The notes beneath the pieces were generated by a model that searched no databases, had not been told where the DNA came from, and saw nothing but the letters and a program-made list of their open reading frames with translations. A DNA stretch of 37,720 nt, taken from assembly GCF_001418575.1 (NCBI RefSeq), contig NZ_LIQR01000057.1, forward strand, positions 1 to 37,720. The letters are read 5' to 3'. A program made the translations under genes and the position numbers. Shown one piece after another: positions 8,656 to 15,105 of this stretch. Source of the DNA: Peterkaempfera griseoplana. Its GTDB lineage: Bacteria; Actinomycetota; Actinomycetes; Streptomycetales; Streptomycetaceae. How positions within the stretch are numbered: position 1 is the stretch's first letter; each line of letters starts with the position of its first letter.

Positions 8656-8799
8656 GGGGGTGCCTCTCGTACGGATGGTCGGTCTCGCCTGCCATGATCC
8701 CGCTCGCGGGTGGTCCGCGGTAATCGGCGGCCCGCCGATCCGCCAGGATGGTCGAAGATCATCCCTGAACCACCGTCCCACGAACGGAAGTCGACCCCC

Positions 8800-9930
8800 A
8801 TGTGGAGCGTGATTCGTCCGCTGGCCCTGCTGTGCTGCGCGGTCGCCGTACCGGCCCTGGTGGGCTGGGCGGCGGACCGGTTGCTGCGGCGGGCGATCGG
8901 CGCCCGGCCCGCGTCGCGGACCCTGCCGCTGCTGCGCCGCTGCCGGATGCCGCTGCAGGCGGCGGTCGCCGCGGCCTGGCTGTACGCGGCGCTCCCCGCC
9001 GCCCGGCTGCCCCGCCACCTCTACCCGGACGTCCGGCATGCCCTGCTGCTGCTGGTGCTGGGCACCTCGGGGTGGCTGGGGGTGCGGGTCACCGGTGCGC
9101 TGGTGACCACGGCGGTGGGCCGGTACGAGAGCGCGGTGGAGGACCACTCCCGGATCCGGCGGATCAGGACCCAGGTGGGGCTGATACGGCGGGTGACCCA
9201 GGCCGCCATCGTGCTGGTGGCGATCGCGTCCATGCTGATGACCTTCCCCGGGGCCCGTACGGCGGGTGCCAGCCTGCTGGCCTCGGCCGGGGTGATCGGC
9301 GTGGTGGCGGGCATCGCCGCGCAGCCGACGCTGGGCAACCTCTTCGCCGGGCTGCAGATCGCCTTCGGCGACATGGTGCGGATCGGCGATGTGGTGGTGG
9401 TGGACGGGCAGCGCGGCGAGGTGGAGGAGATCACTCTCACCTATCTGGTCCTCGCCACCTGGGACCAGCGACGGATCGTGATGCCGGTGTCGTACTTCAC
9501 CGGCCGCCCCTTCGAGAACTGGTCCCGCAAGGACCCCCGGATGACCGGCACGGTGCTGCTGCACCTGGACCACGCCGCCCCGGTCGCGGAACTGCGGGCG
9601 GAGCTGAAGCGCTATCTGGACGGCAACGCCCTGTGGGACAGGCAGGGCTGGAGCCTGCTGGTCACGGACACCACCCCGTCCACGGTGGTGGTGCGGGCGC
9701 TGGTGACGGCGCGCGACGCGGACGACGTCTGGACGCTGCGCTGTGCGGTCCGCGAGCATCTGCTCGGCTATGTGCGCGACCGCCATCCGCGTGCGCTGCC
9801 CCGGGTGGTGACCGCGGTGGCCGAGAGCAAGACGCCCGACGGGGCGCAGTGGCATCCCGGGGACGAGGCCGTCCCGGTGCCCCGCCGGGCCGGCGGGCCG
9901 GGTGTCAGCCTGGCCAAGAAGCCGCGCTGA
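8800..9930 (+). CDS. MscS-family mechanosensitive ion channel, paralogue 1
   Basis: The 376-residue product would release solutes when membrane tension rises. Hydrophobic segments lie near residues 4-25, 53-68, 78-105 and 133-150. The pore helix with small residues follows (ASLLASAGVIGVVAGIAAQ, 157-175), then the MscS beta domain with the hallmark FGDMVRIGDVVVV (189-201) and the conserved RRIVMPVSYF. The last residues include GGPGVSLAK, shared with the paralogue at 13846. ATG at 8800 has GGAAG upstream. Its closest relative in the window is the 419-residue MscS protein 4 kb away, and the two flank the hydrolase-ABC unit transcribed in the opposite direction. Osmotic protection is the family role; a specific link to the ABC unit is inference. 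Confidence 0.9.
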   Translation: MWSVIRPLALLCCAVAVPALVGWAADRLLRRAIGARPASRTLPLLRRCRMPLQAAVAAAWLYAALPAARLPRHLYPDVRHALLLLVLGTSGWLGVRVTGALVTTAVGRYESAVEDHSRIRRIRTQVGLIRRVTQAAIVLVAIASMLMTFPGARTAGASLLASAGVIGVVAGIAAQPTLGNLFAGLQIAFGDMVRIGDVVVVDGQRGEVEEITLTYLVLATWDQRRIVMPVSYFTGRPFENWSRKDPRMTGTVLLHLDHAAPVAELRAELKRYLDGNALWDRQGWSLLVTDTTPSTVVVRALVTARDADDVWTLRCAVREHLLGYVRDRHPRALPRVVTAVAESKTPDGAQWHPGDEAVPVPRRAGGPGVSLAKKPR

Positions 9931-9981: not shown

Positions 9982-10893
9982 TCAGGACACCACGTCCTTG
10001 CCCCGGAAGCGCCGGAAGGCCAGGGCCACCAGCACCACCGCGCAGGAGACCGACACGGAGCCGCCCTTGACCATGCCGCCCCACTCCAGCTGGGGCTGCA
10101 GCGCGTCGGCCCAGGCGTACTGCCAGTGCGCGGGCAGGAACTGCCGCCAGTCCCCGAGGGCGGTGACCGCGTCCAGCACATTGCCGAGGACGGTGAGGAA
10201 GACCGCGCCGCCGACCGCCCCCAGCGGGGCGTCGGTGGCGGTGGAGAGCCAGAACGCCAGCCCGGCGGTGGCCAGTTGGGACACCGTCACATACGCCACC
10301 GCGATCAGCAGCCGGGGCAGCGCGTCACCCGCCGCCAGGCTGCCTCCGGTCGGCAGACGCAGATCCCCCCAGCCGTAGGCGGCGGTGCCGACGGCGAGCG
10401 CCACCGCGGGCAGCAGCACCATGGCGGCGGCGCTGAAGGCCAGTCCGACGGCGAGTTTCACCCCGAGCAGCCGGGGACGCGGCACGGGCGCGGCCAGCAG
10501 ATAGCGCAGCGAGGACCAGCCCGCCTCCGAGGCCACCGTGTCGCCGCAGAACAGCGCCACCGGGATGACCAGCAGAAAGCCGCTGGAGACAAAGAGCGCG
10601 GTGGCCGCGAAGTTGGCGCCGGAGGCGGTGGCCGTGTCGATCAGGGTGGTGCGGCCGCGGCCGGGGTCCGGTCCGCCGCCGACCGCGAAGGCGATCAGCA
10701 GGACCAGCGGCAGCCCGGCCAGTACCGCGGCCATCACCAGGGTGCGGCGGCGGCGCAGCTGCCGTACGGCCTCCACCCGGAAGGGCAGGGTGCGGCGCGG
10801 CTGATAGCCGGGGGCGTGCCCGGCGTCGGGCGGCTCGGGGCTGCCCAGCGGGGGCACCCGGGGTGCCGCGGAGGGCGTCGGTACGGCGCTCAC
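9982..10893 (-). CDS. ABC-2-type transporter permease
   Basis: The 303-residue membrane protein is probably the permease partner of the upstream ATPase fusion. A Pro-rich cytoplasmic N-terminus (1-50, with RQLRRRRT near 45-52) is followed by about six hydrophobic segments, beginning with LVMAAVLAGLPLVLLIAFAV. A periplasm-side loop contains GGGPDPGRGRTTLIDTA. The stretch EAGWSSLRYLLAAPVPRPR resembles the coupling region of ABC-2 permeases. The start is GTG at 10893, which overlaps the stop of the ATPase gene as GTGA (10890-10893). Translational coupling of the two subunits is therefore likely. The end faces the first MscS gene across a 51-bp gap containing a GC palindrome (9966-9979). Confidence 0.85.
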   Translation of the reverse strand: MSAVPTPSAAPRVPPLGSPEPPDAGHAPGYQPRRTLPFRVEAVRQLRRRRTLVMAAVLAGLPLVLLIAFAVGGGPDPGRGRTTLIDTATASGANFAATALFVSSGFLLVIPVALFCGDTVASEAGWSSLRYLLAAPVPRPRLLGVKLAVGLAFSAAAMVLLPAVALAVGTAAYGWGDLRLPTGGSLAAGDALPRLLIAVAYVTVSQLATAGLAFWLSTATDAPLGAVGGAVFLTVLGNVLDAVTALGDWRQFLPAHWQYAWADALQPQLEWGGMVKGGSVSVSCAVVLVALAFRRFRGKDVVS

Positions 10894-13685
10894 GCGGGGC
10901 CTCCGATCAGGGAGAGGAAGGCGTCCTCCAGGCGGCGGTGCGGGGCCAGCCGCTCCACGGGGATGCCGAGCCGGACCAGTTCCGCCAGCAGCCGGTGCGG
11001 CGCCAGGCCGTCCAGTGCCACCAGCACCCCGCCGTCGGCGGCTTCCGCGGAGGCCACCCCCTCCAGGGCGGCGATCTTCTCGGCGGCCGCGGTGACACCG
11101 CCCTCGTCCAGCGCCTCGGGGCCGCTGGTGACCACGGAGACCATCAGCAGGCCGCCCGCACCGACGATGTCGGCGACGGCGCCCGCCGCGACCAGCCTGC
11201 CCTGGTCCATCACCACCAGGTGACTGCAGCTCTGCTCGACCTCGGAGAGCAGATGACTGGAGACGATGACGGTGCGTCCGGTGGCGGCGTAGCGGATCAG
11301 CACCTCGCGCATCTCGCGGATCTGCGGGGGGTCCAGTCCGTTGGTGGGCTCGTCCAGGATGAGCAGTTCGGGCAGGCCCAGCATGGCCTGGGCGATGGCC
11401 AGGCGCTGGCGCATGCCCTGGGAGTAGGTGCGCACCGCCCGGTCCAGGGCCTCGCCCAGTGCGGCGATCTCCAGGGCCTCGTCCAGGTGGGCGTCCCCGG
11501 CCGGGCGGCCGGTGGCCTGCCAGTACAGCCGCAGGTTGTCGCGGCCGGTCAGATGGGGCAGGAAACCCGCGCCCTCGACGAAGGCGCCGACCCGGGAGAG
11601 CACGGGTGAGCCGCCGCGGACCGCGTGGCCGAAGATCCGGATGTCGCCGCCGTCCGGGCGGATGAGGCCCATCAGCATCCGCAGGGTGGTGGTCTTCCCC
11701 GCGCCGTTGGGGCCGAGCAGACCCACCACCTGGCCCTGTTCCACCCGGAAGCCCAGGTCGCGCACGGCATAGCGGTCGGCTGCCCCGGCATAGCGCTTGG
11801 ACAGGCCGGTGATCTGCAGCGGCACCGCCGCCAGCAGGGGGTCGGGCGGCGGGGTGCGGCGCAGCCGGCCGCGGCCGGTGAGCAGCAGCAGCGCGGCGAA
11901 GGCGACGGCTGCGGCGGGCAGGCCCCAGACCCAGCCGGGCAGCGGCGGGGCCGCGGTGCGCAGCCCCTGGTCGGCGGGCACCACCAGGCCGGGGCCGACC
12001 GCCGCGATGCGGTAGTGGGCGGGCTGCACCGGTGAGGCGTAGGCCAGGTCGGTGGTGGCCAGGACGACCGCCATCCGGTGGCCCGCGGCGAACTCGTGGT
12101 CCACCGCGGGCAGCCGTACCTCCAGGGTGCGGCCTGCGGCGCTGTCGGCGCCGGTCACCCGCAGCGGGGCGGCCAGCTGCTGGGGAAGGGTGCGGGTGCC
12201 GTCCTGGGCGACGTCGTAGACCTTGCCGAAGAGCACCGCGTCGGGCCGGTCGGAGTGCACCCGTACGGTGATCCGGGGTGTTCCGGTGACCCGGACCGCG
12301 GCGGGCAGCGGAGCGGAGGTGAAGACCGCGGACTGGCCGGGGAGGTCGAGGGTGAGCCCGGCGCCCGCGGCGGAGAGCTGGGTGAGCGCCGAGACCCCGG
12401 GGACGGTGGAGAGGGCCGGCGGGGAGCCCCCGGCCGGGTTGGCCGCGGTCTGCTCGGGCCCGGTCAGCGCCACGGTGCGGCGGGTGGTGCCGTCCAGGCC
12501 TGGGTAGCGTTCGGCGGTGGCGCCGCGCAGCACCGGCTCGACGCCGGTGGAGTCCAGGCCACCGGTGCGGGTGACCCGGAAGGCCGGGCCGGTGGCGGCG
12601 CCGCTGCCCTTGAGGTAGTGGTCGAACCAGGCGGTGATCCGCTGCTGGACGCGTCCGCTCTCCTGGTTGCCGCCGTCGTGTCCGCCGTCGAACCAGTCGA
12701 CCGCGACGGGCGCTCCGTTGGCGGCGACCGCCCGGGCGATGGCGTCCCCCTGGTCGAGGGGGAAGAGGGAGTCGTGCAGCCCCTGGACGACCAGGGTGGG
12801 GACGCGGATGCGGTCGGCGACGGAGGACGGGCTGGAGCGGTCCAGCAGCTTCACGGCGGCCGGGTCGGCGTGTCCGGCCACCGCGACCCGGTTGTACATC
12901 TCGCAGAGCTGGTCGGTGAAGCGGCCGCAGCCGGAGGCGCCCGCGGCGGCGGGGGCCGCGGCGCTTGCGGCGGCGGAGCCGGAGGCGCCCAGGGAGGCGG
13001 AGCCGGAGGTGAAGAAGATCCCGGCCCAGAGCCGCTTGAAGACCCCGTCGGCGGCGGATCCCCCCACGGCGTTCTGCGGGAAGAGCGCGTCCGCCAGGTT
13101 CCACCAGGTGATCTGGGGGGCGATCGCGTCGATCCGCCGGTCGTAGGCCGCCGCCAGCAGCGAGATCGCCCCGCCGTACGAGGCACCGGCGACCCCGACC
13201 CGGGGGTCGCCCGCTCCGTCCAGCTGCACCTCGGGACGCCGGGCCAGCCAGTCGACCAGGGCGCGGACGTCCTGCACCTCCGCGTCCGGCGAGTCCAGCG
13301 CGATCCGCCCGCCGGAGCGGCCGAAGCCGCGGGCCGACCAGGTGAGCACCGCGTAGCCGGACCGGGCGAGCTGCTCGGCCTGCGCCCTGACGTCGTTCTT
13401 GGAGCCGCCGAAGCCGTGCGCCAGCAGCACCGCCGGACGCCGGCCGGGTCCGCCCGCGGTGAGGAAGGAGGTGTCGACGGCCACCCGCCGGGAGCTGCCC
13501 GGGCTCTCGGGCAGCTGCAGAAAGCGCTGCTCGACGTGGACCACGGGGCCACCCGAGGCCGTCTGCCGCCACACCCCGGCGCCACCCGCCACCGCGGCCA
13601 GGGCCAGCACCGCGGCCGTCAGCCGCCGGGCGCGGCGCGGCCACCCCCTCCACCACTGCCGCACACGGCGGCCGACCGGCTCCAT
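10890..13685 (-). CDS. Fusion of an extracellular S15/X-Pro dipeptidyl-peptidase-like hydrolase with an ABC transporter ATPase
   Basis: The 931-residue protein reads in one uninterrupted frame. An arginine-rich N-terminus and a membrane helix (about 22-38) are followed by an alpha/beta hydrolase with a complete triad, S169 in GASYGG, D305 in GLHDS and H336 in GGHDGG. Next comes a beta-rich C-terminal domain of the CocE/X-Pro peptidase kind (about 440-565). A second membrane helix (584-603) ends in GRGRLRR. The rest is an ABC ATPase with Walker A GPNGAGKT (658-665), signature YSQGM (754-758), Walker B LLILDEP (774-780) and H-loop H811. The two helices put the hydrolase outside and the ATPase inside, a coherent topology. 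ATG at 13685 has AGGATC upstream. The permease follows with a 4-bp overlap. Substrate is unknown; a peptide or acyl compound cleaved outside is inference. Confidence 0.9.
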   Translation of the reverse strand: MEPVGRRVRQWWRGWPRRARRLTAAVLALAAVAGGAGVWRQTASGGPVVHVEQRFLQLPESPGSSRRVAVDTSFLTAGGPGRRPAVLLAHGFGGSKNDVRAQAEQLARSGYAVLTWSARGFGRSGGRIALDSPDAEVQDVRALVDWLARRPEVQLDGAGDPRVGVAGASYGGAISLLAAAYDRRIDAIAPQITWWNLADALFPQNAVGGSAADGVFKRLWAGIFFTSGSASLGASGSAAASAAAPAAAGASGCGRFTDQLCEMYNRVAVAGHADPAAVKLLDRSSPSSVADRIRVPTLVVQGLHDSLFPLDQGDAIARAVAANGAPVAVDWFDGGHDGGNQESGRVQQRITAWFDHYLKGSGAATGPAFRVTRTGGLDSTGVEPVLRGATAERYPGLDGTTRRTVALTGPEQTAANPAGGSPPALSTVPGVSALTQLSAAGAGLTLDLPGQSAVFTSAPLPAAVRVTGTPRITVRVHSDRPDAVLFGKVYDVAQDGTRTLPQQLAAPLRVTGADSAAGRTLEVRLPAVDHEFAAGHRMAVVLATTDLAYASPVQPAHYRIAAVGPGLVVPADQGLRTAAPPLPGWVWGLPAAAVAFAALLLLTGRGRLRRTPPPDPLLAAVPLQITGLSKRYAGAADRYAVRDLGFRVEQGQVVGLLGPNGAGKTTTLRMLMGLIRPDGGDIRIFGHAVRGGSPVLSRVGAFVEGAGFLPHLTGRDNLRLYWQATGRPAGDAHLDEALEIAALGEALDRAVRTYSQGMRQRLAIAQAMLGLPELLILDEPTNGLDPPQIREMREVLIRYAATGRTVIVSSHLLSEVEQSCSHLVVMDQGRLVAAGAVADIVGAGGLLMVSVVTSGPEALDEGGVTAAAEKIAALEGVASAEAADGGVLVALDGLAPHRLLAELVRLGIPVERLAPHRRLEDAFLSLIGGPA

Positions 13686-13845: not shown

Positions 13846-15105
13846 GTGGACCTGTGGAGCGTACTGAGGCCGGGTCTGGCGCTGGTCGGAACGTTGCTGG
13901 TCACCCTGGTGCTGGGGCGGCTCGCCGAGCGGCTGGTGGGGCGGCTCGTCGCCGGGCGGCCCGAGAGCCTGCGGGCGCCGCTGCGGCGCTGCCGGGTGCC
14001 CTTCCTGCTCACGGTCGGATCGCTGGTACTGCTCGGCAGCGAGCAGACGGCCGGTCTGCCGGCCGCCGTGCGGGGGCCGCTGCGGCATGTGCTGGTGCTG
14101 CTGCTGATCGCGGTGGCCGCCTGGCTGCTGTCGCGTACCGCCGCCCTGCTGATCGGCACCTCCTTCACCCGCTACACCGCGGGGCACCGGGATCCGGCGC
14201 GGGTACGGCGGGTCCGTACCCAGGCGGGGATGCTGCGGCGGATCACCACGGTGCTGGTGGCGCTGGTGGCGGGGGCCTGCATGCTGCTGACCTTCCCCGG
14301 GGTGCGGGCGGTGGGCACCAGCCTGCTGGCCTCGGCGGGGCTGATCGGGGTGGTCGCGGGTGTGGCGGCGCAGTCGACGCTGGGCAATCTCTTCGCCGGG
14401 CTGCAGGTCGCCTTCGGCGACATGGTGCGGATCGGCGACGTGGTGGTGGTGGAGGGCGAGTGGGGGACGGTGGAGGAGATCACCCTCACCTATCTGGTGC
14501 TCGCCACCTGGGACCAGCGGCGGATCGTGATGCCGGTGTCGTACTTCGCCTCCAAGCCCTTCGAGAACTGGTCCCGGCACGATCCCCGGATGACCGGCAC
14601 GGTGCTGCTGTACCTGGACCACGCCACCCCGGTCGAGGAGCTGCGCGAGGAGTTCCGGCGGCTGCTGAAGGACTCGCCGCTGTGGGACGGCCTGGGGTCG
14701 GCGCTCCAGGTCACCGACACCACACCCAGCGGGATCGTGGTGCGGGCCCTGATGACCGCCCAGGACTCCGACGACGTCTTCGCGCTCCGCTGCGAGGTGC
14801 GCGAGCGGCTGGTGGAGTGGCTGCGGACCAACCACCCCGGGTCGCTGCCCCGGATCGCCACCGCCGCAGCCCCCGCGGCGGAGGTCCCCCGGCCCAGGGA
14901 GGGGCTGTGGCAGGACGGTGCGGCGGATGCCGGCCGGCGCGGGCAGGCGGCGGCCGACGCCGGGCCGCGGCAGGACCCCGCGGAGGGGCCGCACCGGCCC
15001 GGTCAGGAGCCCACGGACGTGGAGGCCCTGCACAACGCGGGCGGCCCCGGCGGTGTGTCGCTGGCCAAGGACGGCGGCCCGGCCGGGGACCCGCGGCGGG
15101 GGTGA
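13846..15105 (+). CDS. MscS-family mechanosensitive ion channel, paralogue 2
   Basis: The 419-residue product is a close relative of the channel at 8800. It has the same N-terminal opening (LWSVLRP against MWSVIRP), an RRCR motif before helix 2, the pore helix with SLLASAGLIGVVAGVAAQ, FGDMVRIGDVVVV and RRIVMPVSYF. It differs by a hydrophilic, low-complexity insertion of about 50-60 residues near the C-terminus, after which GGPGGVSLAK returns. The start is GTG at 13846 behind GAGGAGAGAG. It is divergent from the hydrolase-ABC gene with a 160-bp gap, so shared regulation is possible. Its end is seven bases from the convergent GNAT gene. High DNA identity with paralogue 1 over the beta domain suggests duplication or gene conversion. 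Confidence 0.9.
   Translation: MDLWSVLRPGLALVGTLLVTLVLGRLAERLVGRLVAGRPESLRAPLRRCRVPFLLTVGSLVLLGSEQTAGLPAAVRGPLRHVLVLLLIAVAAWLLSRTAALLIGTSFTRYTAGHRDPARVRRVRTQAGMLRRITTVLVALVAGACMLLTFPGVRAVGTSLLASAGLIGVVAGVAAQSTLGNLFAGLQVAFGDMVRIGDVVVVEGEWGTVEEITLTYLVLATWDQRRIVMPVSYFASKPFENWSRHDPRMTGTVLLYLDHATPVEELREEFRRLLKDSPLWDGLGSALQVTDTTPSGIVVRALMTAQDSDDVFALRCEVRERLVEWLRTNHPGSLPRIATAAAPAAEVPRPREGLWQDGAADAGRRGQAAADAGPRQDPAEGPHRPGQEPTDVEALHNAGGPGGVSLAKDGGPAGDPRRG

Follow-up and report, generated by a model that had tools for sequence, protein, structure and literature searches.

An alpha/beta hydrolase, predicted to be extracellular, covalently joined to an ABC ATPase in Peterkaempfera griseoplana and other Actinobacteriota

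A 37,720-nucleotide stretch of the Peterkaempfera griseoplana genome (contig NZ_LIQR01000057.1, positions 1 to 37,720; hereafter the window) carries a gene in which a serine hydrolase of the CocE/NonD type, predicted to lie outside the cell, is joined in a single frame to a complete ATP-binding cassette (ABC) ATPase. The fused gene occupies positions 10890 to 13685 of the minus strand, begins with ATG, ends with TGA and encodes 931 amino acids; the gene for an ABC-2 permease adjoins it. All of the domains come from known families, and the protein already stands in databases under the plain name 'alpha/beta fold hydrolase'. An outside serine hydrolase covalently joined to the ATPase subunit, of single origin and spread through Actinobacteriota, nevertheless seems to be undescribed. 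No experimental description of a hydrolase-ATPase fusion was found in the literature searched, outside which most subscription papers fell, and the accessible part of a 2024 alpha/beta hydrolase survey mentions no ABC fusion.

Translation of the minus strand from 13685 to 10890 gave one stop-free frame, which rejects a hidden stop or frame change, and the ATG start is backed by a homologous N-terminus in locus L041. Pfam matches to the product were Peptidase_S15 (7e-22, residues 84-308), PepX_C (4e-14, residues 439-555) and ABC_tran (1.7e-29, residues 642-782), all three exceeding their curated cut-offs. An earlier note, made from the sequence alone, had described one frame holding a membrane helix, a hydrolase with the triad S169/D305/H336, a beta domain, a second helix and a full ABC ATPase; translation, the Pfam matches and the invariance of the triad across homologues bear out this description. 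The structure model of the fusion has a mean predicted local distance difference test (pLDDT) score of 85 (mostly above 90 in the hydrolase) and a predicted template modelling (pTM) score of 0.63, so the relative placement of its domains is not to be trusted.

The occurrence survey covered Actinobacteriota genomes and plasmid records. Using the hydrolase part as query, we scanned 296 actinobacterial genomes and read wider stretches of the best matches, which disclosed the fused frame in 20 genomes from seven GTDB families (19 read directly and G023 by a junction-spanning match). All 80 loci taken from the genome collection, most of them from Streptomyces and Kitasatospora, were fused; having been retrieved with the fused protein as query, these loci show recurrence and not the frequency of separate parts. 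A junction-spanning query over 61 relatives found the fusion in 26 of 37 Streptomycetaceae genomes, including two that matched in the ATPase part only, yet proved fused when read. Across all loci, which come from those seven families and from further lineages, hydrolase and ATPase shared one frame with the permease adjoining on the same strand (106/106). The alignment used below covers 99 of these loci; the other seven were read separately, and the permease adjoins there too. Finished chromosomes are represented, as is a RefSeq-annotated Tsukamurella plasmid with the same gene pair and 4-nucleotide overlap, its products named 'alpha/beta fold hydrolase' and 'ABC transporter permease'. Because all 106 homologous loci are fused, the fusion is neither a chance event nor an assembly join; the chance that an assembly or sequencing error united two genes, a concern in a draft genome of 802 contigs, is negligible given the same single frame in so many loci, finished chromosomes and the plasmid among them. 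The two findings that the earlier note regarded as fatal to it, an assembly join or homologues whose parts are always separate genes, were looked for, as far as could be done, and not encountered. Its description of the architecture as unusual stands in one sense: the architecture is rare, yet the fusion is not rare in nature and is common in Streptomycetaceae.

In a tree of 48 hydrolase domains, a single branch (support 98/96; recovered in 97% of bootstrap trees) separates the 26 fused ones from the rest; one joining event therefore suffices, and the fusion has been kept since. A solo hydrolase next to an ABC pair was considered as an evolutionary intermediate and found unsupported, as no matching permease adjoined the unfused sister hydrolases within the stretches read. 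A few unfused relatives (L133, L144, L145) have other ABC ATPases nearby.

The hydrolase half consists of a catalytic domain (residues 46-370; 12576..13550; this and all other features of the fusion lie on the minus strand) and a PepX_C-type beta domain that is mostly beta in the model (residues 371-575; 11961..12575). Both domains that define the CocE/NonD group were detected well above threshold (PF02129, 78.8 bits against a cut-off of 23; PF08530, 53.3 against 22.5), as was TIGR00976 for the group as a whole (98.6 bits against 66.3). The catalytic residues Ser169, within G-A-S-Y-G-G (13179..13181), Asp305 (12771..12773) and His336 (12678..12680) are present without variation in 99/99 aligned homologues, forming a Ser-Asp-His triad. 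The hydrolase looks intact and is predicted to cut esters or peptides. The closest solved fold is PaL (8yzn; Z score 33.0, 450 residues, 2.8 Å), which ranks first by sequence as well, followed by CocE (Z 27.9) and PepX (Z 26.4). PaL, equated here by name match with the Pseudomonas alcaligenes lipase of the cited work, is a lipase that takes bulky hydrophobic esters and hydrolyses menthyl propionate (PMC9902596). Residues 90-94 of the fusion read HGFGG, with no Tyr, and H90, G91 and F92 are invariant in the 99 sequences. In CocE and alpha-amino acid ester hydrolase (AEH) the oxyanion hole uses a tyrosine (CocE Tyr44, AEH Tyr206). Since the nearest solved relative is the lipase PaL and HGF appears to stand in place of the CocE/AEH tyrosine motif, an X-Pro peptidase activity is not the most probable one. 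The name 'S15-like' given in the earlier note is thus right by Pfam, yet by these sequence comparisons it probably points to the wrong activity.

The ATPase domain (residues 620-843; 11157..11828) contains every expected motif: Walker A GPNGAGKTT (residues 658-666; 11688..11714), the signature YSQGM from residue 754, Walker B with its catalytic Glu (DE, 778-779) and the H-loop His811. The Walker A Lys, signature Ser and Gly, Walker B Asp and Glu, and H-loop His never vary among the 99 aligned sequences. The fold resembles TM0544, NosF and ABCA4, and past the ATPase lies a C-terminal alpha/beta domain reaching residue 931 (10893..11156), as in NosF/TM_1403-type ATPases; 4yer and 7o0y align over residues 619-931. 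In two loci, on the Tsukamurella plasmid (L169:5911-8286) and in Nonomuraea (L170:5917-8826), the ATPase match stops short, leaving out the C-terminal domain (about 90 residues). As the triad and the key ATPase residues are invariant in 99/99, selection appears to maintain both activities; loss of the triad would be expected if the hydrolase merely filled space. Against the window sequence, the 12 distant members average 62% identity in the ATPase, 44% in the permease, 43% in the catalytic domain and 35% in the beta domain.

Two hydrophobic segments, both predicted as helices in the model, frame the hydrolase half. The first (residues 17-42; 13560..13637), a signal anchor or signal peptide with an Arg-rich flank, exceeds the hydrophobicity threshold of 1.3 in 98/99 sequences. 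The second (residues 584-604; 11874..11936), followed by RGRLRR, is found in all 99, with a mean net charge of +1.9 after it versus −0.2 before. In some members, for example L124, the N-terminus could be a cleavable signal peptide, in which case the second helix alone would hold the protein. The hydrolase domain holds exactly two Cys in 98/99 sequences, and the pair C253 and C261 in the cap region (12903..12929), a probable disulfide, is present in 96/99. Related unfused S15-type hydrolases of other actinobacteria (L128:7310-10273, L137:7271-9919) carry CW_binding_2 (CWB2) domains and are probably cell-wall-bound enzymes. From the two helices, the positive-inside charge, the cysteine pair and the cell-wall-binding relatives we infer, with good support, that the hydrolase lies outside and the ATPase inside, as the earlier note had proposed. 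The beta domain is tied to the second helix by a link of 15 residues, a length that holds at the 10th, 50th and 90th percentiles alike, so in most members the enzyme would sit close to the membrane beside the permease.

The permease gene (9982..10893, minus strand; 303 amino acids) starts with a GTG that overlaps the TGA of the fusion by 4 nucleotides (GTGA). This overlap fits the translational coupling that the earlier note had claimed. The product matches ABC2_membrane_4 just above threshold (30.6 bits against 27), and its model (pLDDT 88) is a six-helix ABC-2, or type V, permease. Over about 240 residues the fold ties between NosY (Z 17.4) and ABCG2 (Z 17.0), with Rv1217c-type and PmtCD permeases also matching; a sequence search for a solved relative of the permease found none. 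The FtsX-like four-helix plan of type VII permeases, with its large periplasmic domain, does not apply, as ABC-2 families match and the model has no large outside domain. These modelled folds put both permease and ATPase in the ABC-2/type V class, together with NosFY, PmtCD, Rv1217c-1218c and ABCG proteins.

What such a machine might do is suggested by its parts. The explanation we favor, evenly balanced between right and wrong in our judgement, is an ATP-powered pump for extraction or efflux from which the attached surface hydrolase receives a hydrophobic ester or amide. Two fusions and two permeases, a stoichiometry taken from ABC transporters in general, would form a standard ABC-2 transporter with a hydrolase on each side of the exit, each held outside by the short link to the helix leading into the ATPase. 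ATP-driven opening of the permease would extract or export an amphipathic molecule (an acyl ester, lipid-like compound or lipophilic peptide) and present it to the tethered hydrolase, where the ester or amide bond would be cut. Such a pump would serve to detoxify or turn over compounds lodged in the membrane and not to feed the cell. Consistent with this are the lipase PaL as nearest solved hydrolase, the ABC-2/type V folds of permease and ATPase, and the precedent of Escherichia coli YbbAP-TesA, in which an ABC transporter works with an outside esterase and is proposed to pull hydrophobic compounds out of the membrane for hydrolysis (PMC12646458). Other points weigh against it. The permease fold match cannot separate transporters (ABCG2, Rv1217c-1218c) from NosFY, the carrier of an outside partner; gene context offers no substrate hint; and the esterase activity of YbbAP-TesA was little stimulated by ATP (PMC12646458).

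The main rival is an ATP-gated surface hydrolase without transport, similar to FtsEX, in which ATP binding would shift the permease and second helix and so switch on or position the hydrolase for an envelope substrate. We regard this as unlikely, though a serious contender; its stronger form, in which the ABC pair is a mechanical switch and cytosolic ATP binding pulls or releases the surface hydrolase via the joining helix as a covalent ATP-gated ecto-enzyme, is a tentative proposal and rather doubtful. The covalent link of ATPase and hydrolase through one helix, with near-constant length, speaks for gating, and NosF and NosY, the top or joint-top solved neighbors, belong to a complex with the outside partner NosD. 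The NosDFY complex works mechanically, and for FtsEX the accessible part of the published work treats mechanotransmission to cell-wall hydrolases as established. However, the permease lacks a large outside domain through which motion could be passed on, NosY and ABCG2 tie in fold score, and related hydrolases occur without such an ABC partner, so that this type of enzyme needs no ATP gating. The present data do not separate extraction followed by cutting from an ATP-gated enzyme.

A resistance or immunity device against peptide or lipopeptide antibiotics, in which a BcrAB/LanFEG-like expulsion pump would carry a built-in cleaving enzyme, appears improbable. The ABC2_membrane_4 match of the permease is compatible with it, and one homologue resembles the lantibiotic-immunity permeases MutG/MutE, albeit at 20 bits against a cut-off of 117; an NCBIfam search of the window permease gave no match. 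Likewise, the ATPase of the fusion scores 168.6 bits with TIGR03740, the lantibiotic-protection ATPases, where the cut-off is 309.75. All lantibiotic matches are thus far under the curated cut-offs, neither ATPase nor permease reaches those of the LanFEG and BcrAB families, and the window pair has MscS-like channels, a GNAT gene and apparent housekeeping genes around it, with no conserved biosynthetic neighbor. Uptake by the permease of a product released by the hydrolase, which the earlier note had offered as import coupled to cleavage, is very improbable: surface hydrolases often feed importers and the topology would permit it, but the ABC-2 permease and NosF/DrrA-type ATPase have exporter-type folds and no gene for a substrate-binding protein is conserved nearby.

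Comparison of the neighborhoods across families revealed no conserved neighbor but the permease, and neither a substrate-binding protein gene nor a biosynthetic gene was conserved nearby; fusion and permease therefore form the whole conserved unit. In the window the pair is flanked by two MscS-like channel genes (8710-9930 and 13846-15105) on the opposite, plus strand, 58% identical to each other. The divergent upstream copy recurs only in Streptacidiphilus/Kitasatospora-type loci (L041-L043, L046, L047, L051, L052, L056-L059); L041 keeps both copies, and L127 has one weaker MscS-like match farther off. The apparent housekeeping genes of the window are RluD-, LspA- and IleRS-like by eye.

Elsewhere in the same genome, the sole paralogue of the permease (31%) adjoins the best paralogue of the ATPase (46%) in an unfused operon (L163:3318-6224; genome G000, contig C452). 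These closest unfused relatives are accompanied by a third gene for a LolA/RseB-like protein, a similarity that is weak; relatives of this gene occurred in 21/21 genomes checked. Lipids or lipoproteins are the usual cargo of LolA-like proteins. That the sister transporter, too, is accompanied by an outside protein is suggestive without amounting to proof.

The covalent tie of the hydrolase to an ABC motor removes doubt that both act together, which for YbbAP-TesA had to be shown by co-purification. Being common in Streptomycetaceae, the system is open to study in ordinary laboratory strains, and whether ATP-driven extraction feeds an outside enzyme becomes testable by single-residue mutants in one protein. 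If lipophilic compounds are destroyed or processed, the system is relevant to how organisms that make antibiotics keep their own membranes clean.

Among known systems, the hydrolases of the CocE/NonD - Peptidase_S15 group (PaL, CocE, PepX) share the alpha/beta hydrolase fold, beta-sandwich and Ser-Asp-His triad; the fusion differs in being membrane-anchored and joined to an ABC ATPase, in apparently having HGFGG in place of the tyrosine motif, and in its cysteine-pair cap. BcrAB, LanFEG and DrrAB are alike in ATPase type and ABC-2 permease class, as judged by subthreshold matches, but have a separate cytoplasmic ATPase and no hydrolase. NosDFY gives the top or joint-top fold match for ATPase and permease and likewise places an outside partner on an ABC-2 pair; that partner, NosD, is a separate protein and not a hydrolase, and acts in nitrous oxide reductase maturation. 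In TC 3.A.1.145, too, an ABC-2 transporter component carries a peptidase, but this is an M1 aminopeptidase, from another peptidase family, fused to the permease instead of the ATPase (PMC3924187). YbbAP-TesA resembles the present system in coupling an ABC transporter to an extracytoplasmic serine esterase, although its permease is of type VII (MacB/FtsX-like), equipped with periplasmic domains, and its esterase is a separate GDSL-family protein, compared with the ABC-2 permease, alpha/beta hydrolase and covalent ATPase link seen here. The part of this resemblance shown here is the physical coupling, by the covalent fusion and the adjoining permease gene. If the extraction reading is right, the fusion pair would work like YbbAP-TesA by analogy, built from unrelated parts and not as a member of the same family.

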